Virus record (IMG/VR): IMGVR_UViG_3300024517_000087
Span: 1-28,330 of that record
Strand: one strand, 5' to 3'
Length of the DNA: 28,330 nucleotides
Source: a virus
Made by a program: the position numbers and the translations under genes. How positions within the stretch are numbered: the stretch's first letter is position 1; the number at the start of each line of letters is the position of its first letter. The notes under the pieces are model-generated. The model searched no databases and was not told the origin of the DNA. It saw nothing but the letters and a program-made list of their open reading frames with translations. Of the stretch, positions 7,270-28,330 are shown one piece after another.

Positions 7270-7300
7270 CCCCCGGCGGAGTGCCCCTGCCGGGGGTTTT
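7270..7300 (+). terminator. Intrinsic terminator before the preQ0 genes
   Basis: CCCCCGGC (7270-7277) pairs perfectly with GCCGGGGG (7289-7296) around an 11-base loop and is followed directly by TTTT. It separates the HTH-like gene from queE. Some read-through must occur, or an unseen promoter must lie downstream, for the queE operon to be transcribed. Confidence 0.85.
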
Positions 7301-7322
7301 ACCCAACACCCAAGGAACACCA

Positions 7323-8063
7323 ATGAACCTCCCAAACAAGCAAGCGCCGGAACCCCGTGTGCTGTCCAACGGTACGGAACTGGACGTGCATTCGGTTTTT
7401 CGTACTATACAAGGCGAAGGCCCGCACAGTGGACGTAAAGCCGTCTTCGTTCGGTTGGCTGGGTGCAACCTACAGTGCCCGCTGTGTGACACGCAGTACA
7501 CGGACGGCAGACAGACGGTTGGTCTACGCGACTTGTGTGAATCCCTCTACAGTACGTGCCTTGACTACGACTGCGATTTCGTAGTTCTTACTGGCGGTGA
7601 ACCGTTTCGTCAGAACATCGCGCCTCTGGTGCAGCAGTTGACGCAAATTTACGACCTAACCGTGCAGGTCGAAACCAATGGGCGTCTTGCACCACAGGAT
7701 TACGATAAGCTTCTGTTGGCCCGCAACACCGGTCGCTTCGACATCGTAATCAGCCCGAAGACGTCTACTGTTAACCCGGTTTGCGCCAGTCTGGCCACAG
7801 CGTGGAAGTACGTTGTTTGTTATGATGACGTGGACGAGGACGGTCTACCCGTACAAGCTCTTGACCACCCTGTGCCCACGGGTGCCACTGTGGCGAGACC
7901 TCCGGAGGACTTTACGGGCTTGGTCTATGTACATCCGGCGGACGAACAAGACGTGGACCTCAACACCCTTAACCTCAACGCGGCCGCCATGGCCGTTCTG
8001 GACTCAGGCGACAACCGGCGACGGCTTGGACTCCAGATTCATAAGTACGCCGATTTGGAGTAA
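7323..8063 (+). CDS. queE: 7-carboxy-7-deazaguanine synthase (QueE), radical SAM enzyme
   Basis: A 246-residue QueE. It converts 6-carboxytetrahydropterin to 7-carboxy-7-deazaguanine using S-adenosylmethionine and a 4Fe-4S cluster. The cluster motif is C48-x3-C52-x2-C55 within AGCNLQCPLCDT, preceded by the QueE hallmark FRTIQGEGPHSGR at about 26-38. TGGEP at 90-94 is the SAM-binding glycine motif, followed by VETNG at about 116-120. The length is typical. The ATG at 7323 has AAGGAA a few bases upstream; a frame extending back to 7281 would overlap the terminator and is rejected. It is the first of four consecutive preQ0-pathway genes, six bases before queC. Confidence 0.93.
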   Translation: MNLPNKQAPEPRVLSNGTELDVHSVFRTIQGEGPHSGRKAVFVRLAGCNLQCPLCDTQYTDGRQTVGLRDLCESLYSTCLDYDCDFVVLTGGEPFRQNIAPLVQQLTQIYDLTVQVETNGRLAPQDYDKLLLARNTGRFDIVISPKTSTVNPVCASLATAWKYVVCYDDVDEDGLPVQALDHPVPTGATVARPPEDFTGLVYVHPADEQDVDLNTLNLNAAAMAVLDSGDNRRRLGLQIHKYADLE

Positions 8064-8069
8064 CCCAAC

Positions 8070-8810
8070 ATGTCAATTCCGGAAATGATGTCTGTTTTAG
8101 ACCGGGCCTTTACGCCTCTGACGGACCAGAAGGGCCTTGTTGTTTTGAGTGGCGGCCAAGACAGTGTGACAACACTACACTACGCCATGGCACGACACAC
8201 GCCGGCCAATACGTTGGCCATCGGCTTCAACTACGGCCAACGACACCGGACCGAGCTGGACCAAGCGTTTAAGGTTGCCGCAAAGTATAACGTTCCGTAC
8301 AAGGTCCTCGACTTGTCGGCATTGCGCGACGTGGGTCATTCGGCGCTTACAGGCCCCGGTGACGTATCTAAACCGCACGAGACCCTCAAAGACGTACCGG
8401 CCTCCTTTGTCCCGGCGCGTAACGCCATGTTCCTGACACTGGCACACAGCTACGCCGTTCACGTCGGTGCGGCGCATGTGTATGCCGGTATGTGCCAAAC
8501 AGACTACAGCGGATACCCGGACTGCCGTGCCGAGTTTGTGGCACAGCTCAACACCGCGTTGAATACCGGGTACCTGCAAGATGTCGTGTTTGACACGCCT
8601 ATCATGCATATCGACAAGGCCGAAACGTTCGCCTTGGCCGAACACCTTGGCGGGCTGTCCGACGTGTTGGAACTGTCCCATACGTGCTACGAAGGAGATC
8701 GTTCTACGCGGCACCAATGGGGCTACGGCTGTGGGAGCTGCCCGGCATGCCTGCTGCGCGCCAAGGGTTGGGAAGACTACGTAGAACGTTTTGTTGGGGG
8801 TGAGGAGTAA
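8070..8810 (+). CDS. queC: 7-cyano-7-deazaguanine (preQ0) synthase (QueC)
   Basis: A 246-residue QueC. It turns 7-carboxy-7-deazaguanine into preQ0 with ATP and ammonia. The PP-loop ATP-binding motif SGGQDS is at 27-32, FVPARNAMFL near 111 is the second family motif, and the C-terminal zinc site has C206, C221, C224 and C227. The spacing between the first and second Cys is 14 residues, against about eight in the E. coli enzyme as I recall it, an insertion of about six. It is a stand-alone QueC, not the amidotransferase-QueC fusion (Gat-QueC) of phages that make archaeosine-like bases, which makes preQ0 the likely end product. GGAG upstream decides the ATG start. Its stop overlaps queD in TAATG. 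Confidence 0.93.
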   Translation: MSIPEMMSVLDRAFTPLTDQKGLVVLSGGQDSVTTLHYAMARHTPANTLAIGFNYGQRHRTELDQAFKVAAKYNVPYKVLDLSALRDVGHSALTGPGDVSKPHETLKDVPASFVPARNAMFLTLAHSYAVHVGAAHVYAGMCQTDYSGYPDCRAEFVAQLNTALNTGYLQDVVFDTPIMHIDKAETFALAEHLGGLSDVLELSHTCYEGDRSTRHQWGYGCGSCPACLLRAKGWEDYVERFVGGEE

Positions 8811-9301
8811 TGTTTTACGTCCTGAAACGATACGGGCACGAACAGGGATTTAGCTGCTGTTTTCGACAGTACAAGGCGCAGTCCCATTGCAACACACTGC
8901 ACGGGTACGCACTCGCCTTTGAACTGGAGTTTGGTTGTGCCTTCCTCGATCAACACAACTGGGTTATAGACTTTGGCGGTCTAAAGCCGGTGAAAGAGAT
9001 GTTAACCCATAATTTCGACCACACACTGGCTGTGGATCAGAGCGACCCGTTGGCCGACGTCTTTGTCCAGCTACAGTCGAAATGGAAAGTCGCAGATGTT
9101 CGGCTGTTTGACAATGGTGTAGGCTGTGAACGGTTCGCGGAATTCGTCTTCACGTGGGTAGACAACTGGCTGTCCACACACCCAGACAACGTGATACCAG
9201 ACCCCCACCCTAACGCCGGTCAACCGCGCGCGTGGATTGAGCGTGTGCGTGTCTCCGAACACAACGGCAACCACGCGGACTACACAGGAAGTGCTATATG
9301 A
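8810..9301 (+). CDS. queD: 6-carboxytetrahydropterin synthase-like protein (QueD) with an altered zinc site
   Basis: A 163-residue member of the QueD/PTPS fold, which makes 6-carboxytetrahydropterin from dihydroneopterin triphosphate. The catalytic elements are present: C27 (C-x3-H), D70 and H71 (NFDHT) and a Glu in CERFAEFVF (107-111). In contrast, only one of three expected zinc histidines is in place: the FxAAH motif reads FSCCF, and HGH reads HGY (31-33). An IDFGGLKPVKEM segment is typical of the family, and the C-terminus is longer than in E. coli QueD (about 120 residues). Position between queC and folE makes the pathway role very likely. I recall this SCxFRQ...HCxxLHGYAL pattern from related alphaproteobacterial and phage proteins, so it is probably a functional subfamily rather than a broken gene. 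Confidence 0.85.
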   Translation: MFYVLKRYGHEQGFSCCFRQYKAQSHCNTLHGYALAFELEFGCAFLDQHNWVIDFGGLKPVKEMLTHNFDHTLAVDQSDPLADVFVQLQSKWKVADVRLFDNGVGCERFAEFVFTWVDNWLSTHPDNVIPDPHPNAGQPRAWIERVRVSEHNGNHADYTGSAI

Positions 9302-9855
9302 CCGAGTATTCACAGAAGGACCTGTTCCGCGCAGCGGGAGAGGGTATACTACGCGGCGCGTCCCAGTTTGGTCGCCCCGGTACCCTCGAAACCCCGGACC
9401 GTGTGGCCAAGGCTTGGGCACACTGGACAGCCGGTTATGACATAGACACAAGTGTCCTACTGAAGACGTTTGAAGACGGTGCCGAGAACGTCGACGAGAT
9501 GGTGGCTGTCGTGGACATACCGTTTTACAGTCATTGCGAACACCACCTTGCGCCCTTTTTCGGTACGGCCACTGTTGCCTATATCCCGAACGGTCGTGTC
9601 GTCGGCCTCAGTAAGTTAAGTCGTCTTGTCGACGTCTTTGCGCGGAGACTACAGGTTCAAGAACGTTTGACGCAACAAGTGTCCAGCACCCTTATGACCG
9701 AACTCCAGCCCTTGGGCGCTGCGTGTAAAATCCGTGCCCGGCACCTGTGTATGGAATCACGAGGGGTCTGTCAGCAGGGTCACCACACGGTGACGACCTC
9801 GTTGCTTGGGCGTTTTCGTGACCCAGAAGTCCGCGCCGAGTTTCTGGCTTTGTGA
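9298..9855 (+). CDS. folE: GTP cyclohydrolase I (FolE)
   Basis: A 185-residue FolE, which converts GTP to dihydroneopterin triphosphate, the first step of both folate and 7-deazaguanine synthesis. Zinc ligands are C80 and H83 in YSHCEHHLAPFFG and C151 in HLCMESRGV. The substrate-binding segment GLSKLSRLVDVFARR (about 103-117) and the QVQERLTQQ helix are well conserved. The start is ATG overlapping the queD stop in ATGA, with AGGA upstream. It is somewhat shorter than E. coli FolE, mainly at the N-terminus. Together with queD, queE and queC it supplies every step from GTP to preQ0, so the phage need not rely on the host pathway. Confidence 0.93.
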   Translation: MTEYSQKDLFRAAGEGILRGASQFGRPGTLETPDRVAKAWAHWTAGYDIDTSVLLKTFEDGAENVDEMVAVVDIPFYSHCEHHLAPFFGTATVAYIPNGRVVGLSKLSRLVDVFARRLQVQERLTQQVSSTLMTELQPLGAACKIRARHLCMESRGVCQQGHHTVTTSLLGRFRDPEVRAEFLAL

Positions 9856-9867
9856 TCGACTTTTCGT

Positions 9868-9896
9868 TTGACACTGTTGTGCCCCGGCTGTAATGT
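9868..9896 (+). promoter_or_regulatory. Strong sigma70-type promoter candidate
   Basis: TTGACA (9868-9873), a perfect -35, and TAATGT (9891-9896) are separated by the optimal 17 bases. It lies in the 73-base gap after folE and would drive the small genes, the DpdA-type gene, the clamp-like gene and the polymerase. It is the best promoter match in the window. Confidence 0.65.
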
Positions 9897-9928
9897 TGGG
9901 GTACAAACTCGAACACAGGAGCAACCCA

Positions 9929-10090
9929 ATGACCTTCGAAGACCAGACCATCCCTACCGGCAAACGTACCATCCGTATCACTGTTCGTGGCTCCATCATG
10001 GGTTACATCGGTCGCACACGTTGGGAGTGCTTTGGCGAACGTTCCGATCCGGCCGCAGAAGCCGCAGCGCAAGAGTGGGTGCAGCAATGA
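9929..10090 (+). CDS. Hypothetical small protein (53 aa)
   Basis: A 53-residue protein, too short for family recognition. It starts with a charged strand (GKRTIRITVRG), has an MGYIGRTRWECFG centre and ends in an Ala-rich amphipathic helix (PAAEAAAQEWVQ). The ATG at 9929 has CAGGAG eight bases upstream, and an ATGA overlap joins it to the next gene. It is first in the unit behind the strong promoter. It may be a small regulator or an accessory of the DpdA-type enzyme, but nothing in the sequence shows this. Confidence 0.55.
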   Translation: MTFEDQTIPTGKRTIRITVRGSIMGYIGRTRWECFGERSDPAAEAAAQEWVQQ

Positions 10091-10302
10091 CCTACGACTA
10101 TGACCTCGCTACAGACATAGCAGACTGGCTTGCGGCCTCGCAGTTTGGGACGCAAGCGAACCAGCTCCGTTGCGCGGCCATGTGCGCCATAGAGGAGGGC
10201 GTTACCGTGTCCGAGTTTGTTGCCGCATGTGAGGCGCTGGGCGTAAACCCCGGAACGGCGCGTAACCGCTGGTACGAAGTTCGCCGGCAGTACGCAGCGT
10301 GA
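10087..10302 (+). CDS. Small HTH-like protein (71 aa)
   Basis: A 71-residue all-helical protein. Residues about 40-67 (VSEFVAACEALGVNPGTARNRWYEVRR) resemble a helix-turn-helix with a basic end, and NPGTARNRW matches the NPATIQTQYNRWR and NTAHTQYRRFR signatures of the two small proteins at 6389-7260. It overlaps the 53-residue gene (ATGA) and the DpdA-type gene (GTGA). It may be a DNA-binding regulator of the modification genes or an accessory of the transglycosylase; both are inference. Confidence 0.6.
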   Translation: MTYDYDLATDIADWLAASQFGTQANQLRCAAMCAIEEGVTVSEFVAACEALGVNPGTARNRWYEVRRQYAA

Positions 10303-11198
10303 AACTATACCTCGCCGCCGGCTATAACTCCGCAATGGGCCGCTTTCAGGGTGCATACAAACGGCTCAGTCCTCAAGCCAAGACTGCCTTCGACTACTGT
10401 AACCACAGGTTGGAATCTTATCACTACTTGCATAGTGAATCCTTGTTGGAACACATACGCCGGGACGGTCGCAAGGTGTTTTTAGATTCGGGTGCGTTCT
10501 CCGCCTTTAGCTTGGGGGTTGATGTGTCACTAGAAGACTACGCGGCCTTCTGCCATAAGAACGCGGACATTATTCTTATGCCGTCGGTACTGGATGCCAT
10601 CGGTGACCCGGACGGCACGTGGGTGAACCAAAAGAGACTCGAGGATCTTGGGGTGGCCTGCTTGCCGTGCTACCACTTCGGAGAACCGGAAGCCGTGTTG
10701 GAATACTACTTGGAACACTACGACTATATCACTATTGGCGGCATGGTTCCCATCTCCAGTCCTAACCTGAAACGATGGTTGGACCGTATATGGCCCGACC
10801 ATTTGCTGGACAGTAATGGTCAACCTCGGGCTAAGATACACGGCTTTGGCCTTACCTCCCCCGAACTTATGGAACGGTATCCGTGGTACTCTGTTGACTC
10901 GTCTTCATGGGTGCAGATCGCGTCTTTTGGTGCGGTGTTTGAACCGGACTACGGTGCGTTGCATATATCGGAGAAGGCACCCAACAGGAAATCCTTTAAC
11001 CAACACTTCGACAACCTTGCCCCGGTGGTACAAGACAGGCTCCGCGCAACGTTTGAGTTCTACGGGTTCACGGCGGACCAGCTCAGGACCTGCTACATTC
11101 ATCGACGCGCGTACAACGCCCTACGGTATACGCTGCTTGCCGAACAGATCGAAAAGCGCCGTGACCCACACGTTACGGAACAGAGGTACTTACTATGA
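10299..11198 (+). CDS. dpdA: DpdA-type 7-deazaguanine DNA transglycosylase (TGT-like)
   Basis: A 299-residue protein of the phage DpdA branch of the tRNA-guanine transglycosylase superfamily. These enzymes swap guanine in DNA for a 7-deazaguanine base. Visible motifs are FLDSGAFSAF at 61-70 (D63 matches the conserved Asp of the TGT active site), VLDAIGDPDGTW at about 97-108, CYHFGE at 124-129, YITIGGMVP at about 143-151, KIHGFG at 179-184 and YSVDSSSW at 197-204, whose D200 is a candidate nucleophile. No TGT-type zinc-binding cysteine cluster is seen at the C-terminus, as is usual for these short forms. The start is GTG in a GTGA overlap with the preceding gene. Its neighbours encode the whole preQ0 pathway, which is the strongest support. 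The base inserted cannot be read from sequence. Confidence 0.85.
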   Translation: MKLYLAAGYNSAMGRFQGAYKRLSPQAKTAFDYCNHRLESYHYLHSESLLEHIRRDGRKVFLDSGAFSAFSLGVDVSLEDYAAFCHKNADIILMPSVLDAIGDPDGTWVNQKRLEDLGVACLPCYHFGEPEAVLEYYLEHYDYITIGGMVPISSPNLKRWLDRIWPDHLLDSNGQPRAKIHGFGLTSPELMERYPWYSVDSSSWVQIASFGAVFEPDYGALHISEKAPNRKSFNQHFDNLAPVVQDRLRATFEFYGFTADQLRTCYIHRRAYNALRYTLLAEQIEKRRDPHVTEQRYLL

Positions 11199-14293: not shown

Positions 14294-14322
14294 TTGAACC
14301 GTGTTCCAGAGTGTGGTTTAAG
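14294..14322 (+). promoter_or_regulatory. Candidate sigma70-type promoter
   Basis: TTGAAC (14294-14299) and TTTAAG (14317-14322) are 17 bases apart, about 31 bases upstream of the next start. It would start a new unit for the last three rightward genes. Confidence 0.45.
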
Positions 14323-14352
14323 GTGTGTAGCAACTCAACGGAGACCACCCCA

Positions 14353-15180
14353 ATGACCGACACTTTTGACAACTTTATCGACAGTCTCATCTCAGACGAC
14401 GTGGACCAGTTGAAGGCCGCCCCGACCAAGCGCGAGAACAAGGTGACGTTTACTTGTACCGCGTGCAACGGCTCGGGGCTGTGGAACGGTGGTCGGGTTA
14501 ACCGCCACGGGAACAAGAAGTGCAACACGTGCATGGGCTCCGGCTCGTTGAAGACAGACCCGCGCAAGTTACGCCAGCGGCGTCTGGCTGCAGCTGTACG
14601 CAAGGAAGACCAGCGCAACGCCGCACGCGAACAAAACCTCGGACACGACGGGCTTTTCTCGGCGCTGCGTGACGCGTCGGACTGGAACAGCTTCGCGCAA
14701 TCGCTGGTACAACAGCACGAGGAAGGCAAGGTGTGGACCGAAAACCAAGTTGCAGCCGCGCGCCGCATGGTCGCCAAGATTGAAGCCAACCGCGCCGCAC
14801 GTGTGGCTAACGCACCCAGTGTCGACCTACAGCCAATCCGCGACATGTTTGAAGCCGCGCTGGCTAACGGGCACAAGCGCCCGACGTACCGGGCTGAGGG
14901 CCTTGTTATTAACCGGGCACCCGACCACGGTAGGAACCCCGGCGCACTCTACGTTAAGACCGAAGACGGCGACTACCTCGGCAAAGTCCTTGGCACCTCG
15001 TATATGGGCAAGGACGACGCGGCCGAAGCGTTGGCGTCTATCGCGTCCAACCCTCTCGACGCAGCCATTCGCTACGGTCGCAAAACTGGCCGTTGCGCCT
15101 GTTGCGGTCGTGAACTTACCAACAAACTGTCGGTGGAATTGGGTATTGGTCCCATATGCCGCGATAAATGGGGTTTGTGA
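14353..15180 (+). CDS. Zinc-finger protein with DnaJ-like repeat and C-terminal DUF6011-like domain
   Basis: A 275-residue protein with two probable zinc sites. Near the N-terminus C35-x2-C38-x-GSG and C57-x2-C60-x-GSG form a DnaJ-type CxxCxGxG pair. The last 30 residues (GRCACCGREL with C248, C250 and C251, then GPICRDKW with C269) match the DUF6011 pattern seen in many phage and plasmid proteins. Between them is a long charged helical region and a LYVKTEDGDYLGKVL strand pair. The ATG at 14353 lies after the candidate promoter and an ACGGAGA site. Such proteins may bind nucleic acid, but their function is unknown. It is followed by a GTGA overlap with the next gene. Confidence 0.72.
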   Translation: MTDTFDNFIDSLISDDVDQLKAAPTKRENKVTFTCTACNGSGLWNGGRVNRHGNKKCNTCMGSGSLKTDPRKLRQRRLAAAVRKEDQRNAAREQNLGHDGLFSALRDASDWNSFAQSLVQQHEEGKVWTENQVAAARRMVAKIEANRAARVANAPSVDLQPIRDMFEAALANGHKRPTYRAEGLVINRAPDHGRNPGALYVKTEDGDYLGKVLGTSYMGKDDAAEALASIASNPLDAAIRYGRKTGRCACCGRELTNKLSVELGIGPICRDKWGL

Positions 15181-20223: not shown

Positions 20224-21517
20224 AGCCACGCGCCGTCAACTGTAGTCCCACACTCATCAGGTCCCGGACACCCATGTTAGTTGGTATAGGCTGGGCGTTT
20301 GTCTGTGCCAACACTACGTCACCCACGTCGCCGGGTCGCCACGCGATAAAGAAGGGACTTTCCTCTATAGCCTTTTGAAACGGAGGCCAGTTTGTGCGGA
20401 CCCATGCAGCCGTCAAGTTTTGCCAGTCATACGACGTAGTGAGGTATAGCCTCTGGCGAGTACGCCCTAGGAATTCACCAGTCTCAGACTGATTACTCCG
20501 CATTGTTGTTTGCCGGCCAAAAGGCACTGGTGTGTGCCCACCGTAAAGAGGCCGTTCCATTTGTAACGCCTTGCCGAACTTGATTACGCCAATCTCGGGC
20601 GCGCTTCCTGCCGTAATTCTCAGCCGCCAGCTCTGACGCGTCTTAGGCTCAAATATGGCCATGAGCGGCTCGTCGGTTGTCAGTGTCGTGTATCCTGTTA
20701 AGTCATACCAAGTTGATGACGCCGCAGCTGCTGTGGTTCTGATATAAGGCGTGGCCGAAGTACCCTCTTCAAGTTGTGCGCCCCAAGCGTATACTGAGCC
20801 TGTGGCAGTCGTTGTGCCAGACGGATAAATTAGTAGCTCTGTAGACCCCCCAAGAGCGGAACAGGTCAGACTAGCTCTATACCATCCGTTTCCTACTGAA
20901 ACAGCGTTTAAATCTGGATTTGTCCAGTCTATTATTAGGTTTTCTATGTTAGTGGCCGAACCAGGATCGCGCAAAGTTAACCGGGTTTCCGCAGCTGTCC
21001 CCATTTTCAAATACACGCTTGCGGTATATGTATTTCCCAATGTGGTAATTCCGCTTTTTCTTACAGCTTCAAATGTTCCACTTGATTTGCTGATTGTATC
21101 AGCGGTTGTATTTCCGTCAGGTGCGGTGGTCGTATTGGGTGTGACCGTGATTTCCGGTCCGGTGTCAGTCCATTGGTCGAACTGTTCACTGTAAGACAAC
21201 AAATTTGTGCGGGATACGCCCTCATACTCTACAATAATTGTGTTCCCGTTAGTCCCCATAGTGTGTGCGCCGATCACACAGTAGTCACATTCTACACTAG
21301 ACCCGTGGTCATACTCCCAAGTGGCAGTCAGTGATGATGGACTCCATTTTTCGTAAGTCAAGCCAGTAGTTGGTCCATTGGCAAAAAACCCGGTAGCAGT
21401 GCTGCTGGCCGTGACCGTGCCTCCATTCAGCCAGTTATTATCATGAGCAATACGCGCATGAGTTAATGGTTGGTCGCCATTTGGTAAAGTGTAGCCGCCT
21501 TCGAGTATAACCGTCAC
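20216..21517 (-). CDS. Distal tail protein with an inserted jelly-roll-like module (433 aa)
   Basis: A 433-residue tail protein directly after the tape measure, so probably the distal tail or minor tail protein. The C-terminal 160 residues, with LQMERPLYGGHTPVPFGRQ, TTSYDWQNL and RDLMSVGLQLTARGY, are typical of this position in siphophages. Residues about 103-267 look like a separate beta-sandwich, carbohydrate-binding-like module (starting SRTNLLSYSEQFDQW, ending WGAQLEEGTSATPYIRTT), inserted within it. The stretch encoding that module is AT-richer than its neighbours. The start is GTG in a GTGA overlap with the tape measure stop. The module could bind cell-surface sugars and affect host range. 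Confidence 0.72.
   Translation of the reverse strand: MTVILEGGYTLPNGDQPLTHARIAHDNNWLNGGTVTASSTATGFFANGPTTGLTYEKWSPSSLTATWEYDHGSSVECDYCVIGAHTMGTNGNTIIVEYEGVSRTNLLSYSEQFDQWTDTGPEITVTPNTTTAPDGNTTADTISKSSGTFEAVRKSGITTLGNTYTASVYLKMGTAAETRLTLRDPGSATNIENLIIDWTNPDLNAVSVGNGWYRASLTCSALGGSTELLIYPSGTTTATGSVYAWGAQLEEGTSATPYIRTTAAAASSTWYDLTGYTTLTTDEPLMAIFEPKTRQSWRLRITAGSAPEIGVIKFGKALQMERPLYGGHTPVPFGRQTTMRSNQSETGEFLGRTRQRLYLTTSYDWQNLTAAWVRTNWPPFQKAIEESPFFIAWRPGDVGDVVLAQTNAQPIPTNMGVRDLMSVGLQLTARGYD
20717..21211 (-). other. Inserted domain of different composition inside the distal tail gene
   Basis: This stretch encodes residues 103-267 of the distal tail protein. By hand count 20881-21180 is about 46% G+C, against 55% in sample lines at 20401-20460 and 20521-20580. 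The encoded NLLSYSEQF...YAWGAQLEEG...YIRTT framework recurs in unrelated phage and prophage proteins, by my recollection, as a mobile jelly-roll module. Confidence 0.55.
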
Positions 21518-23223
21518 GACACAAACCTCACAATCGCGCCGTCTTCGACAGCTTCGTTGATACCGTTGATTAGCGAAATAACACTGTCCCGCGAGAACAT
21601 GTCGCCACCGACAAGCTGAATAGCCACATTGCGCGACACACCCCCACCGCTTTGCTCGTCTTGACCACTGGGTACTGACGGTGCCCCGGCTGGTGACCCG
21701 CCACCGCCACCGCTACCGCCTATGTTCTTGATGGCGCTTACAGCTCCCATACCGGCGGCGAATACCTGTGCCGCGTAGAGGAACCGGCTAAAGACACCAA
21801 GACCCGGTGTGGCTAGCGCTTCTGTGTAAGCAACCCATGCGTTACGTACAGCCTGTATAGCGTCGAACGCTGCGGCGATGCGCCCCATACGCTCCCCTTC
21901 GGAACCCATTAGGTTGCCAAGGCTCCGGAAGTAGCTACCCCAACCAGCTAACTGACCGGCGAGACTATTCGACTGAATCATGGCGATGTTGTCGTGAAAG
22001 GACTGAATGGCATTGGCTTGTTGTTCTAATGCCCGTTCAAGCGCTGTTTGGCTGTCCTCGCCACTGCCGCTACCACCTTCGCCGTCCTCGCCGCCGCCGA
22101 CACCTAATAGTTCCGGCAGCGTAAGGTTGTCGTCACGAATCGAGGCCAGAACATCCCGAATGGCCTGCACACTGCCAAGCGGGCCCGCAAGGGCTGTACC
22201 TAGACCACCCTGCGCGCTACTCAACACGTCCTGACCCATGGTGCGGATAGCTGTACCGTCCGCGCCTATTCCAGTACTTTCCATCGGGGCGATTTGACCA
22301 AAGCTTGTTCCGAAGGTGTTGTTTAAGCCTCTCGCGATAGCGTTGATGCCGCCAGTGATAGACCGATTTAGGTTGACCCATGCAGTTTCTACCACCCCGA
22401 AAGCTTCCATTAGAGCGCCCTGTATAATCATACCAAGACCACCGAAAGCTTCCGCCATCAAGTTAACACCCATCCGCAGGCGTTCCCATAATTCGCTGAA
22501 TACAGCACCGATTAGACCGAATACCTCTCCTAAACCGCCAGCGGCATTCGTCAACCTTGTAAACTGATATACTAGTTCACCGATACCGATGATTAATATA
22601 CCCACACCTGTCCGGATAAGTGCCGCGCGTAGCGCTACCAGTGAACCGACAAGGCTCATTGTGGCGATGCGAGCAATAGCTATCCCAGCAACCCACCGAC
22701 CTGCGAACAAGGCTACTGCCACGCCTGCTGTAATAATAATCCTGTCAAGGTTATTAATGACAGCGCCAATGGCTGTAGACGCGAACTCCCGTAACCCGGC
22801 AAAAGCCCCCGCGAGTGTATCTACCACAGGCGACAATTCCCCGAATAGGCGGGCCATGGTACCGGCCTCGACGTTCGCCCCGCGCATCACGCGCACAAGT
22901 GGAACCCCGATAGCCACAACGGCGCCGATTACTGCGCCCAGTACACCAAAGCCGCCAAGCAACTGCGGTAACTGCTGGCCCAAGGCGATTGACGCAGAGG
23001 TGCCTGCGCCAACCTGCGTGGCGAAGTCCGCAAACTGGAACGACGCGTTTTGTAGCGCCATGCTGCCGGGGCTCCGCCGACCCATAGAACGAGAAATTGC
23101 CCGGCCTGTTTCGTTTGCACGGTCGCGGACACTGTCAAGCGCTTCGTTTGCCCGGCGCGTAGACCTACGTAGGCTTTCCGAATCGCCAGTAATGACAACG
23201 TCTAGTTCTGCTCTGCGTACCAT
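21514..23223 (-). CDS. Tail tape measure protein (569 aa)
   Basis: A 569-residue tape measure protein. The N-terminal 60 residues are a charged coiled coil (ESLRRSTRRANEALDSVRDR). Then come several long hydrophobic segments between about 80 and 280 (LGGFGVLGAVIGAVVAIG, ITAGVAVALFAG, GVGILIIGIGELVYQ), a Gly/Ser/Glu-rich linker near 395-415, and a C-terminal helical part with a Gly-rich stretch. It sets tail length: at the usual 0.15 nm per residue this predicts a tail of about 85 nm. It starts two bases after the end of the chaperone fusion frame and overlaps the distal tail gene in GTGA. Position after the gpG/gpGT pair supports the call strongly. Confidence 0.9.
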   Translation of the reverse strand: MVRRAELDVVITGDSESLRRSTRRANEALDSVRDRANETGRAISRSMGRRSPGSMALQNASFQFADFATQVGAGTSASIALGQQLPQLLGGFGVLGAVIGAVVAIGVPLVRVMRGANVEAGTMARLFGELSPVVDTLAGAFAGLREFASTAIGAVINNLDRIIITAGVAVALFAGRWVAGIAIARIATMSLVGSLVALRAALIRTGVGILIIGIGELVYQFTRLTNAAGGLGEVFGLIGAVFSELWERLRMGVNLMAEAFGGLGMIIQGALMEAFGVVETAWVNLNRSITGGINAIARGLNNTFGTSFGQIAPMESTGIGADGTAIRTMGQDVLSSAQGGLGTALAGPLGSVQAIRDVLASIRDDNLTLPELLGVGGGEDGEGGSGSGEDSQTALERALEQQANAIQSFHDNIAMIQSNSLAGQLAGWGSYFRSLGNLMGSEGERMGRIAAAFDAIQAVRNAWVAYTEALATPGLGVFSRFLYAAQVFAAGMGAVSAIKNIGGSGGGGGSPAGAPSVPSGQDEQSGGGVSRNVAIQLVGGDMFSRDSVISLINGINEAVEDGAIVRFVS

Positions 23224-23225
23224 GG

Positions 23226-23836
23226 TTAGTCCTTCTTGACCTTGGCTGCGTGGGCCTCACGTAAGGCGCTACGTTCTTCGTTAGACATAAAGGTCTTATC
23301 GTGCTGGCTTCGTTGTGTCACGTAGTGGTGGTCGGCAAGCCAGTAGTACTCTTGATACGTCATTTCCCAGAACTCCCCCGGCTGGACGCCCCACTGCCCG
23401 ACACAGTGCTGGTAGAACGTCCGTATAATTGCCGAGGTACTTACGCGTTTCCCGACGCGGCGGCCTTCTTGTTGTCACCCTTTTTAGGTTTAGGCAATTC
23501 GGCGCTGGTGCCGGCGACCAGTGCGGCGAGGTACAACCCCAACGGCTCCAGCACGTTAACAGGACCGGCCTCCATCACCATGTCGCCTACCTCCTCCAAC
23601 GTAAGCGAGCCACCACCGGCCGCGTGTCCTGCGTGGAGAATTTTAACCACGTTAAGGACCGTCATAGGCATAACAGGTGTATGCGGAAGCCCGGTCTTCT
23701 GGGCTTCCGCCGCCAACATTTCGTCCCGGGCCAAGACCATCGGGTCGATAACTTGGTCTGTGATCGCCATGTTGGCTTTGAACGTTGTGGCGCAGTCCAA
23801 AGTACTGCTACCAATCTTAACCTTGTGTGTTCGCAT
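23226..23836 (-). CDS. Tail assembly chaperone fusion (gpGT type), made by -1 frameshift
   Basis: The extended product of the chaperone gene. The ribosome reads 130 codons from 23836, slips back one base on GGGAAAC (23453 to 23447), and continues 73 codons in the -1 frame to a TAA at 23228-23226, giving a predicted 203-residue protein. The extension begins RVSTSAIIRTFYQHC and includes a QPGEFWEMTYQEYYW segment and a basic end. Such EFWxMTxxEY-like sequences are typical of the T part of lambda-like gpGT proteins. The frame has no start signal of its own. The fusion binds the tape measure and tail tube subunits during assembly and is not in the finished virion. The frameshift is predicted, not shown. 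Confidence 0.75.
23441..23836 (-). CDS. Tail assembly chaperone (gpG type)
   Basis: A 131-residue protein that occupies the lambda gpG position between the major tail and tape measure genes. It ends in a Lys-rich stretch (LPKPKKGDNKKAAASGNA) just after the slippery site. The ATG at 23836 has GGAGAG upstream; an in-frame TTG at 23848 is a less likely start. It is the main product, made when no frameshift occurs. Residues before the end, with LTLEEVGDMVMEAG, suggest a helical chaperone fold. Confidence 0.8.
   Translation of the reverse strand: MRTHKVKIGSSTLDCATTFKANMAITDQVIDPMVLARDEMLAAEAQKTGLPHTPVMPMTVLNVVKILHAGHAAGGGSLTLEEVGDMVMEAGPVNVLEPLGLYLAALVAGTSAELPKPKKGDNKKAAASGNA
23447..23453 (-). 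other. Programmed -1 ribosomal frameshift heptamer GGGAAAC
   Basis: On the minus strand the frame reads TCG GGA AAC GCG TAA, so GGGAAAC is phased as X XXY YYZ, the rule for -1 slippage. It lies one codon before the zero-frame stop and enters an open -1 frame of 73 codons ending next to the tape measure start. Lambda uses the similar GGGAAAG at the same place. Confidence 0.78.
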
Positions 23837-23864: not shown

Positions 23865-24275
23865 TTAGGCCGTGGATGCTGTGTATGTCAGGGGGCCAGC
23901 TGACATAAGGGTTGCGGTGAATTCGACGGCACCGTCGTGTTCGCCTGTAATTTCGAAGGCCGACACAAAGAAGTTGCCGGTAACAGTGCCCGGTGTGGCC
24001 AGCGACGAAGGCAAGTTAACCGTGGCACCTGTAAGCGTCCGGCCCGTGATACCGCTCATGATTTCGCCGATAAGTACCTCGTCCGAGGTAATACCACCAA
24101 CCGAGATGTCCGCACTGCGTACACCGGGATCCGGCAACAAGACGCGTTGACCGCTGTCGTCGTCCGTCGTCACATCCACGGGTTCGGCAGATACCGATAA
24201 TCCACGAGTCCGGATGCCCACAAGTGTGGTGCTGTCCCAGTCTACGGTTAGTTCCCGTCCGTTAAATCCAGCCAT
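23865..24275 (-). CDS. Major tail protein (tail tube)
   Basis: A 136-residue tube protein. It starts AGFNGRELTVDWDSTTLVGIRTRG and has SVSAEPVDVTTDDDSG near 27-42, a pattern of major tail proteins of the TP901-1 and GTA type, which polymerise around the tape measure. LTGATVNLPSS and GNFFVSAFEITGEHDG strands, then a VEFTATLMSAGPLTYT end, complete the beta-barrel fold. It lies between the tail terminator and the chaperone genes, as expected. The ATG at 24275 follows the stop of the next gene upstream by three bases. Confidence 0.87.
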   Translation of the reverse strand: MAGFNGRELTVDWDSTTLVGIRTRGLSVSAEPVDVTTDDDSGQRVLLPDPGVRSADISVGGITSDEVLIGEIMSGITGRTLTGATVNLPSSLATPGTVTGNFFVSAFEITGEHDGAVEFTATLMSAGPLTYTASTA

Positions 24276-24278
24276 GTC

Positions 24279-24689
24279 CTAGGCCTCCTGAATTGTGATG
24301 CGAAATGTAATAAAGCCGTGATGGGTTACGCCATCCGGGTCCGGGACCACCCCGGAAGAGACGAACAGGGAATCCACCACATTGTACCCGGCCCGTGTAA
24401 GTGTTGCCCGGTGGAGTAGGGCATACGTTTGGTCCAGCAGTCCGTCCACCTCTTTGCGCCCTTTGTAACGGCTCCAGACGTGGACCGTTGTATCCACGTA
24501 GGCCCCAACATGCGAGTCATTATCAAACGGTACCACGTCTGAGTCACCCACCGTGAGGTAGGGGAATAGGTTGTCCGGCTGTCCTTCCGGCTCAAACGGT
24601 ACGTGGTCTAAAACGCCTGCTCCAGACACACCCGCCAAGAGTGTGCTGTAAACCATGATTTTGACAACGCTGCGAAAGTCCGTAGCCAC
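24279..24689 (-). CDS. Tail terminator/completion protein (DUF3168-like)
   Basis: A 136-residue protein of the DUF3168 type, which in phages and GTAs caps the tail tube and helps join it to the head. Features are VPFEPEGQPDNLFPYLTVGDSD near 30-50, VDTTVHVWSRYKGRKEVDGLLD near 66-87, and a C-terminal FITFRITIQE strand. The start is GTG at 24689, two bases after the upstream stop; the first in-frame ATG is 11 codons later and would remove the N-terminal helix. It directly precedes the major tail gene in the normal order. Confidence 0.82.
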   Translation of the reverse strand: MATDFRSVVKIMVYSTLLAGVSGAGVLDHVPFEPEGQPDNLFPYLTVGDSDVVPFDNDSHVGAYVDTTVHVWSRYKGRKEVDGLLDQTYALLHRATLTRAGYNVVDSLFVSSGVVPDPDGVTHHGFITFRITIQEA

Positions 24690-25506: not shown

Positions 25507-25838
25507 CAGTTCAGTTCCGGCTGAATTAGTATGCGTGCGCCTTTACGGTCGTTTGGAAATGTCTCCACTTTACCGTTAGAGAATGTTACCTCGAACTCCG
25601 CATAGTACTTGCCGGGCGTGGCTGTGTCACCAACCTGCCAAGCGTAGGACACTGTCGCGGTGACCGTACTGACAACGGTTGCGGCCGCGTCGACCACCAC
25701 TGTACCGTCCTCTTCGGCCATATGAAACTGAACGGTCGCGCCGGTTAATGCTGCGAGGCTACCGGCAGCGTCCGTCAATACGGCAGCAAAGTCCGGGCTC
25801 GTGTCGTTCTGTTTAATATAAAATATATCGTCCGACAT
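25506..25838 (-). CDS. BppU-N-like Ig-fold protein (110 aa)
   Basis: A 110-residue beta-rich protein. It begins DIFYIKQNDTSPDFAAVLTDAAG and contains LTGATVQFHMAEEDGTVVV and WQVGDTATPGKYYAEFEVTF, ending in a TFPNDRKGARILI strand. That order of motifs is the one I know from the N-terminal domain of baseplate upper proteins (BppU/DUF2479 type) and similar small virion proteins. It lies between the large fibre-like gene and the head closure gene. It might attach the fibre-like protein to the particle; this is inference. It is coupled to both neighbours by short overlaps (TAATG and TGATG). Confidence 0.7.
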   Translation of the reverse strand: MSDDIFYIKQNDTSPDFAAVLTDAAGSLAALTGATVQFHMAEEDGTVVVDAAATVVSTVTATVSYAWQVGDTATPGKYYAEFEVTFSNGKVETFPNDRKGARILIQPELN

Positions 25839-28330
25839 TAATTCGCCCTCGTTGGTGTCTGCCCCGTAAGGACCGCCCGGTTAGGACCGGGGGATACTAC
25901 TGCGGCAGTGTTGGGGTTGGTTACGTTGATTGTCAAGACGCTCCGGCTTGGTGCCGCCGAAAGGTTGTTGGAACCGGCGGAAGATACGACCAAAGCGTTC
26001 CGGCTTAACGCAGCTGTAACCGTTCGTCCGGTGCCGTCGTTCCCGCCCACGCCTCTCGTAATTAGACGCCCAACACCGTCGACCTGCGTCGTACTGGACC
26101 TTACGCGACGGGGGTTTGTGCGCAGACTGCTTCGCCCTCCGAAAATCGTTGTTCTCGGCGACACCCGTATAGGCACCGTATTTAACGCGGACACAGCCCC
26201 CGAACTTGTTGTACGTACCTGTACCAACCGGGGTACTGTAGTTACGGTACTGGTGGCTGCCACAGAGGTTGTCCGTACTCGAACAACTGTGGCCCTTACA
26301 GTTAACGACCCGGCCCCCGCAAAAGACGTAGCCGCAGAAATGGGCGCACCGGCTGGCGTCGTCGTAAAAGATGACGTACCCGCAAACGCCGTGGAAGAAG
26401 TCCGTACCGTTGTGGGCACCGTAGTAAGGGCGCCAGTACCGGTGGTAACTGTTGCTGTATTCTTTACACGGTTGGAGGCCGTCGTAAGAGCCCCAGAGCC
26501 AGCGAAAGCCGTGTTCGCGGCACGGACACGATTGGAAAGCGTGGCTACGGACGAAGAACCGGCAAAAACTGTTGAGGCTAGCTTCACAACAGCAGCAGCT
26601 TCCGGCGTCGTGGTTAGTGTCCCAGTTGCGGCAAAGACCGTGGATGTTTGTTTCACCCTGTCGGCGGCGATAGTGAGGGTGCCCACACCGGACGCGGCTG
26701 TAGACGCCTGTTTCACCCGCGTTGGGGCGACCACCAGAGACCCAGACCCGGCAGCGAGGGTGCTGGACCCTTTCACCCGGTTGGCGGCTGTTGTCGTAGA
26801 AGACGTACCGCCAAAGGCCGTGGCTACTGTTTTGACACGATTCGGGGCTGTCGCCAGCGCCCCGGCAGCGCCGATGGCGACTGCGGACGTTTTGACCCTT
26901 TTGAAGGCGACGGCGAGCGTGGAACTACCCGCGAAAGCCGTGGCACGATCAAAGGTCGTGCCGCCGCCCGCACTCATCGCGGTCATGTCAACGATTTGAA
27001 CGGCGTAGTCCAGATTGTTGCCGGTTCGGGAAGCGGACGCGCCGACCTCGGTCAGGCTGTTGAAATAAAAGTTCCGCCAGCCGCGTGAATAAGCATTACC
27101 CGTGCCGCTGGAATAGGCATGTCCGACCACCAGCGATTGGGTCAGGTCGGTCAGGCCCGAAGACGTGATGTCGAACGTGGTCTCAAGGGGGCCGCTGTCG
27201 GCAGCGGTGTAGCGCGTTACGGCCCATTCGCTGTTTTCAATGACGTGGGCAACGACCCGGTTGGTGCCGTTGCTGTCGTGGTTGGTGTCAAATTCCCAAT
27301 CAAGAGTATCGTTGTCCGTGAACGTGACCAGCGGCCAGTGGTCGGCGATTGCTTGGTTGGTGCCCGTTGCGGCGGTGTCCCCCCGGAACCCGCTAATGAT
27401 GAGCGAGTCCGCTTGGTCTGTGACCGCCGTGACGGACCCGGTAAAATCCGAAGCCGCGTAGAGATCGAACGTGCCGGTGTCGGCGCTGAAATCCCCGCTG
27501 TCGCCGTGAAGGACCGTCCAGTTAGAGCCGCTGAACTCGACAAGTGTCACATATACTGTGACGTTGTTGCTGATCGTTCCCTTCTCGACGTTCAGCCGGT
27601 CGCTGCTGTCGATCCACGCAATCGCCGTGCCGCTGTCTGCACCCGCGCCGCTGTCATCGTTCATGATGCCAGTGATGAACGGCACCACGGCGTTGCGGTC
27701 GGTCGGAGCCGTGAACCCGCTGGTGCTGGCGTAGGTGCGCGTCGATCCGTTCAGCGTGACCGCTACCCGGCCAAGAACAACAAACTCATTCGGGCCACCT
27801 GTGGCCCCTGTATATTCCCAGATCGAAGTTCGGAAATTCGCGGCGGGCGTGTTGGACGCGCTTTCCCGGTAGTAGGTCAGCGTGTCAACTGCGGTCAGAA
27901 CGCGACCACCCGCCAGATCGTCGCCATTGCTGGTGCCCGTGATGGCTCCCGCGTGTGTCATGCGGTTGTTGTTGGCCAGTTCGACCGCGTAACTTAGGCT
28001 TGCGACCTCCGTAAAGCTGGTATTCGTCCCCCCGCTGTTTGTCACATCATCGCTGATGTGTTGGACCTTCATCGCGGAAGGCTCAGGCTCAGGACCGCCC
28101 GTGGGCGTCAGGATGAGGGTTGCTGCCGCCCACCCGTCGTCGCCGCCACCCCCAAAGGCGCTCGGGTTTTCCGAACCCGCCGAAACCGTGGCGCGGATCG
28201 CCGCCATGATGTCGCAACCGGAACCGCTGGACCCAAGGTTGCCAAAACCAAGCATCGTGTAGCCCGCCGGGGCCGTGATGGGGTCCGTTACATCATCTTC
28301 AAGCGCGCCGATGACCAGAACATCATCGCT
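25838..28330 (-). CDS. Large fibre-like virion protein with 20-residue repeats (5' end outside the window)
   Basis: At least 830 residues are visible, and the frame stays open to the right edge, so the true start is outside; an ATG at 28255 is internal. The visible N-terminal part (about 440 residues, down to base 27000) is rich in Gly, Ser, Thr and Asp with beta-sandwich-like stretches such as GYTMLGFGNLGSSGSG and GGGGDDGWAAATLIL. The rest is a tandem array of 20-residue units with consensus near NRVKTxSTAFAGTGxLTTxP, followed by a non-repeat end. It may be a tail or head fibre. Position before the head-completion genes, not after the tail genes, makes a head-fibre or neck-fibre role possible. 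Codon use in the N-terminal part differs from the repeats. Confidence 0.75.
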   Translation of the reverse strand, partial: SDDVLVIGALEDDVTDPITAPAGYTMLGFGNLGSSGSGCDIMAAIRATVSAGSENPSAFGGGGDDGWAAATLILTPTGGPEPEPSAMKVQHISDDVTNSGGTNTSFTEVASLSYAVELANNNRMTHAGAITGTSNGDDLAGGRVLTAVDTLTYYRESASNTPAANFRTSIWEYTGATGGPNEFVVLGRVAVTLNGSTRTYASTSGFTAPTDRNAVVPFITGIMNDDSGAGADSGTAIAWIDSSDRLNVEKGTISNNVTVYVTLVEFSGSNWTVLHGDSGDFSADTGTFDLYAASDFTGSVTAVTDQADSLIISGFRGDTAATGTNQAIADHWPLVTFTDNDTLDWEFDTNHDSNGTNRVVAHVIENSEWAVTRYTAADSGPLETTFDITSSGLTDLTQSLVVGHAYSSGTGNAYSRGWRNFYFNSLTEVGASASRTGNNLDYAVQIVDMTAMSAGGGTTFDRATAFAGSSTLAVAFKRVKTSAVAIGAAGALATAPNRVKTVATAFGGTSSTTTAANRVKGSSTLAAGSGSLVVAPTRVKQASTAASGVGTLTIAADRVKQTSTVFAATGTLTTTPEAAAVVKLASTVFAGSSSVATLSNRVRAANTAFAGSGALTTASNRVKNTATVTTGTGALTTVPTTVRTSSTAFAGTSSFTTTPAGAPISAATSFAGAGSLTVRATVVRVRTTSVAATSTVTTVPRLVQVRTTSSGAVSALNTVPIRVSPRTTIFGGRSSLRTNPRRVRSSTTQVDGVGRLITRGVGGNDGTGRTVTAALSRNALVVSSAGSNNLSAAPSRSVLTINVTNPNTAAVVSPGPNRAVLTGQTPTRAN
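26040..26960 (-). repeat. Degenerate tandem array, 60-base unit (about 13-15 copies)
   Basis: The minus strand encodes units such as NRVKTVATAFGGTSSTTTAA, NRVRAANTAFAGSGALTTAS and TRVKQASTAASGVGTLTIAA, each 20 residues. The RVK start and the G-x-G/S-x-L-T-T end are kept, the rest varies. A few units carry short insertions (TPEAAAVVK, PAGAPIS) in place of the RVK start. The edges are approximate. Confidence 0.75.

Follow-up and report, generated by a model that had tools for sequence, protein, structure and literature searches.

A very probable lambda G/G-T type programmed -1 frameshift in the tail assembly chaperone gene of a largely uncultured siphovirus lineage

The virus record IMGVR_UViG_3300024517_000087 (28.3 kb; its 28,330 nt are the whole stretch analysed here and are called the window) very probably uses a programmed -1 ribosomal frameshift of the lambda G/G-T type in its tail assembly chaperone gene, as judged from sequence layout and conservation. 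The mechanism is already known; the lineage is newly added to it, and the frameshift is unannotated there. The window carries a siphophage head-tail module on the minus strand with the order head completion, neck, tail terminator, tail tube, chaperone gene, tape measure and further tail genes. The Pfam and PHROG matches of the neighbours place the chaperone gene between tail tube and tape measure. The relevant features are:

24279..24689, minus strand: tail terminator (Tail_completion_gp17, E 1.8e-16; PHROG tail terminator)
23865..24275, minus strand: tail tube protein (Phage_tail_2, E 2.1e-18), the anchor for finding relatives
23441..23836, minus strand: zero-frame tail assembly chaperone (G-like), 131 aa, from translation; a homologous ORF lies downstream of the tail tube in relatives
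23447..23453, minus strand: slippery heptamer G_GGA_AAC, in phase, with the same or an equivalent heptamer in relatives
23441..23443, minus strand: zero-frame stop TAA, one codon 3' of the heptamer
23226..23447, minus strand: -1 frame extension (T-like domain), 73 codons plus stop, conserved in relatives
23376..23437, minus strand: predicted mRNA hairpin, a possible stimulator, 9 nt after the heptamer
21514..23223, minus strand: tape measure protein, 569 aa (PHROG tail length tape measure, E 1.4e-15)

The zero frame starts with the ATG at 23836 and has 131 codons before the TAA at 23443-23441. Its 3' end reads GCC GCC GCG TCG GGA AAC GCG TAA, so that GGGAAAC (23453-23447) is phased as G_GGA_AAC and a single codon, GCG, stands between heptamer and stop. 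In the shift to the -1 frame C 23447 is read twice; this frame reads GGG AAA CGC GTA and stays open for 73 codons up to the TAA at 23228-23226, and two bases separate this stop from the tape measure ATG at 23223. The perfectly phased heptamer one codon before the zero-frame stop and the 73-codon frame ending two bases before the tape measure gene had been predicted from the letters, and both were confirmed to the base. The accompanying remark that standard gene calling would miss the extension was also right, because the -1 frame of the window has no ATG, GTG or TTG before its conserved motif (see below), and gene callers could pick up no more than 45 codons of it, from an internal ATG.

We collected 80 IMG/VR loci and then measured the next gene. 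The choice of loci was independent of the chaperone, because they were fetched by tail-tube similarity alone. Many of them were near copies from different samples; there were 58 distinct fusion sequences, including that of the window. The tail-tube anchor worked; with only the window's fusion protein as query, IMG/VR gave no match. Megablast of the window against cultured phages also gave no match. In 76 of the 80 loci the chaperone gene has a slip heptamer in phase close to its end. It was GGGGGAG or GGGGGAA in 37 loci and GGGAAAC, GGGAAAG, GGGAAAA, AAAAAAC or AAAAAAG in the rest of the 76. GGGGGAG is an imperfect X_XXY_YYZ site, at which the P-site codon re-pairs fully and the A-site codon less well. 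The four remaining loci comprised two with the near variant G_GAA_AAG (L068 and L073), one whose contig ends inside the chaperone gene (L052) and one indel copy (L022). L022 is a near copy of L019; around its position 1746 the chaperone zero frame continues beyond where it normally stops, which looks like the effect of a single-base insertion or deletion close to the heptamer, either an assembly error or a natural variant. In all loci except L052 and L022, the -1 frame ran for 64-87 codons past the zero-frame stop, compared with 2-48 codons for the +1 frame. A wider set, found via the chaperone itself, agreed with the tail-tube-anchored set. Only two relatives were found in genome contigs, both in Rhodobacteraceae. 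As a separate observation, locus L001 (IMGVR_UViG_3300044825_000023) carries tandem copies of the tail-tube gene (1561-1965 and 1973-2380, within 1561-2380) before its chaperone gene.

The -1 layout was also present in all seven deposited phages examined, namely phages of Pseudoalteromonas (two), Oceanospirillum, Marinomonas, Alteromonas and Pseudanabaena and one uncultivated spring phage, with the heptamers G_GGA_AAC, A_AAA_AAG, C_CCA_AAG or G_GAA_AAG. In all seven the region is annotated as two separate genes, the second one started inside the domain. Relatives lacking both heptamer and -1 frame had been named as evidence that would speak against the original prediction; this was not seen, as the heptamer or an equivalent site, its reading phase, the -1 frame and the protein motif persist in nearly all of the 80 tail-tube-anchored relatives and in the seven deposited phages.

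The -1 frame behaves as a protein-coding sequence. In the relatives the distance between its opening and the heptamer is often just 0-3 codons. The extensions share a (Q/A)PSEFW motif and a C-terminal A-R-x-x-H-x-x-K pattern, the former at the near-constant distance of 22-30 codons after the heptamer. Pairs of relatives mostly showed dN/dS values of 0.08-0.3 for the extension, and substitutions fell mainly on the third codon positions of the -1 frame. Judged by this pattern of substitutions, purifying selection acts on the -1 product in the relatives. In the chaperone gene the window is only about 47% identical in bases to its nearest relatives; its own values of 0.5-0.6 are therefore near saturation and little informative.

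Could the -1 frame be a separate small gene, started internally at the ATG at 23363-23361 by translational coupling and without any slippage? This is how the deposited relatives are annotated, and in the window a Shine-Dalgarno-like GGGGGAG lies 9 nt before this ATG. However, conservation begins well upstream of the ATG, with Y12, W19, P23, E25, F26 and W27 of the extension, and a -1-frame start codon before the motif is absent in the window and in 43 of 77 sequences in all. An internal start would also leave the conserved in-phase heptamer unexplained, and we regard it as very unlikely. It is extremely improbable that a real indel or an assembly error has split a single continuous gene. Although L022 is an indel copy at this place, the identical two-frame layout is found in dozens of independent contigs and in the seven deposited phage genomes, and the gene is otherwise intact.

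It is hardly credible that a chance heptamer lies beside an unrelated open frame. The bare GGGAAAC does occur at chance frequency, 3 times in the window with 4.6 expected, and is thus not rare, but the combination of phase and open frame is. Codon shuffling of the chaperone gene produced an in-phase X_XXY_YYZ (Y = A/T) within 11 codons in 2.4% of cases, and shuffling of the segment produced 73 open codons in 4.1%. Conservation together with the coding signature is the decisive evidence against chance and far stronger than these shuffle tests. Stop-codon readthrough is inapplicable, because the extension lies in a different frame, and transcriptional slippage was judged unlikely at the GGGAAA site with its runs of just three.

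On the basis of a programmed -1 frameshift, slippage is inferred to occur in the window's virus at some frequency. Most ribosomes would translate the 131-aa chaperone and stop at the TAA at 23443-23441. In a minority, the P-site tRNA would slip back by one base from GGA to GGG and the A-site tRNA from AAC to AAA, and these ribosomes would continue in the -1 frame to give a 203-aa fusion. In lambda, binding of the tape measure falls to the G part and that of the tail tube protein to the T part, and the short and long products stand in a ratio of about 30:1 (review PMC5009743; for the frameshift, Levin 1993 and Xu, Hendrix, Duda 2004, as cited there). By analogy, the zero-frame part may coat the tape-measure protein, the extra domain may recruit tail-tube subunits, and the two products would be needed in a set ratio.

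We also looked for elements that could stimulate slippage. The hairpin predicted in the window has a folding energy of -31.0 kcal/mol (z -2.24), and 4 of 200 dinucleotide shuffles were as stable. In seven close relatives a hairpin stronger than that of the window starts 7 nt after the heptamer, with z values of -3.8 to -6.2 in five (dinucleotide shuffles) and about -4 in the other two (simple shuffles). The usual spacer of -1 stimulators is 5-9 nt (PMC5009743). The relatives' hairpin showed covariation, as both sides change in 6 of 24 pairs, and 92% of the cells paired compared with 32-51% when the partners were slid. As the sequences are few and the hairpin lies in a protein-coding region, this evidence is suggestive of the hairpin acting as a slippage stimulator, which would raise the frequency of the shift. 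We consider it possible, if a little short of probable, that the conserved hairpin, 7 nt from the heptamer in the seven relatives and 9 nt in the window, sets the frameshift level in this lineage, so that RNA structure, in addition to the heptamer, tunes the chaperone ratio. The covarying hairpin provides naturally occurring variants with which to ask whether this frameshift is tuned by RNA structure. An upstream Shine-Dalgarno-like stimulator was not clear in the window (-4.5 kcal/mol, a value also reached at 30% of control positions). Such pairing was enriched across the relatives (mean -6.7 versus -3.3 kcal/mol). Because the window showed no enrichment and the regions are purine-rich, this candidate was dropped.

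The protein family was addressed by profile and structure comparisons. The window's extension matched Phage_TAC_6 (PF09550) weakly, with 15.2 bits (E 0.029) and relatives reaching up to 17.3 bits, all below the gathering cut-off of 23.4 bits. The window's zero-frame part had no match to Phage_TAC_11 (PF11836, GTA gp10 family), while several relatives' zero-frame parts resembled it, the best with 19.2 bits (E 0.0013), below the gathering cut-off of 27.8 bits. AlphaFold, run on the two parts separately and not on the fusion as one chain, gave confident small, mostly helical folds with pLDDT 87 for the zero-frame part and 86 for the extension. Foldseek with the zero-frame model returned an unannotated top viral match (E 7e-9), and viral models named tail assembly chaperone at E 0.026 and weaker. 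Against the PDB, Foldseek and VIA-align with the same model gave noise, with no significant match and no solved chaperone among the rows. Foldseek with the extension model yielded noise only, and a PDB sequence search with a three-member profile found no match. With profile matches below cut-off, an unannotated top Foldseek match and no PDB match, no single strong match underlies the chaperone label; its basis is the gene's position, the layout and weak profile hits that recur in the expected order. The original prediction of a programmed -1 frameshift in a tail chaperone gene is supported by the heptamer, its phase, the -1 frame, the conserved motif and the position between tail tube and tape measure, with the chaperone profiles remaining below cut-off.

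The arrangement resembles lambda G/G-T in its position between tail tube and tape measure, in the -1 slip on X_XXY_YYZ near the 3' end of G and in an extension that has no start of its own and ends beside the tape measure gene. It differs in the heptamer, which is G_GGA_AAC in the window and GGGAAAG in lambda, and in that relatives in the window's lineage carry a conserved hairpin 3' of the heptamer. The family scans reported no match to the lambda G or T sequence. Chaperones of the GTA type (Phage_TAC_11/GTA-gp10 and Phage_TAC_6) have the same domain order, seen in the zero frame of relatives and then in the -1 frame of the window and relatives, and the zero-frame gene of one cultured relative is annotated as 'gene transfer agent family protein'. 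In contrast, all matches to these families stay below the curated cut-offs, and the window's zero-frame part lacks the TAC_11 match. For the haloarchaeal siphovirus HCTV-1, G_GGA_AAC was reported as the G-T shift site (PMC5009743). The heptamer and the kind of gene are the same as in the window, whereas the host is archaeal and the window's only two genome-contig relatives are in Rhodobacteraceae. A lineage of largely uncultured siphoviruses is added to the conserved G/G-T frameshift, and the genomes of its deposited relatives split the fusion into two genes, which cuts off the start of the second domain.

Three further regions of the window were recorded. A second in-phase heptamer, GGGTTTG at 15171 (15168-15180, plus strand), stands at the end of ORF 14311-15180, and a 78-codon -1 frame follows from it; as that frame can start at an ATG of its own at 15168, frameshifting is less likely there than an ordinary start overlap. 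An 805-aa ORF (25838-28255, minus strand) has protein-level repeats of the type AFAGSGALTT..NRVK, lacks long tandem DNA repeats and had no match in Pfam or PHROG. A 7-deazaguanine gene set (7281-11198, plus strand) comprises a QueE-like radical SAM protein, QueC, PTPS/QueD, GTP cyclohydrolase and a queuine tRNA-ribosyltransferase-like protein, and its gene content suggests deazaguanine modification of the phage DNA.
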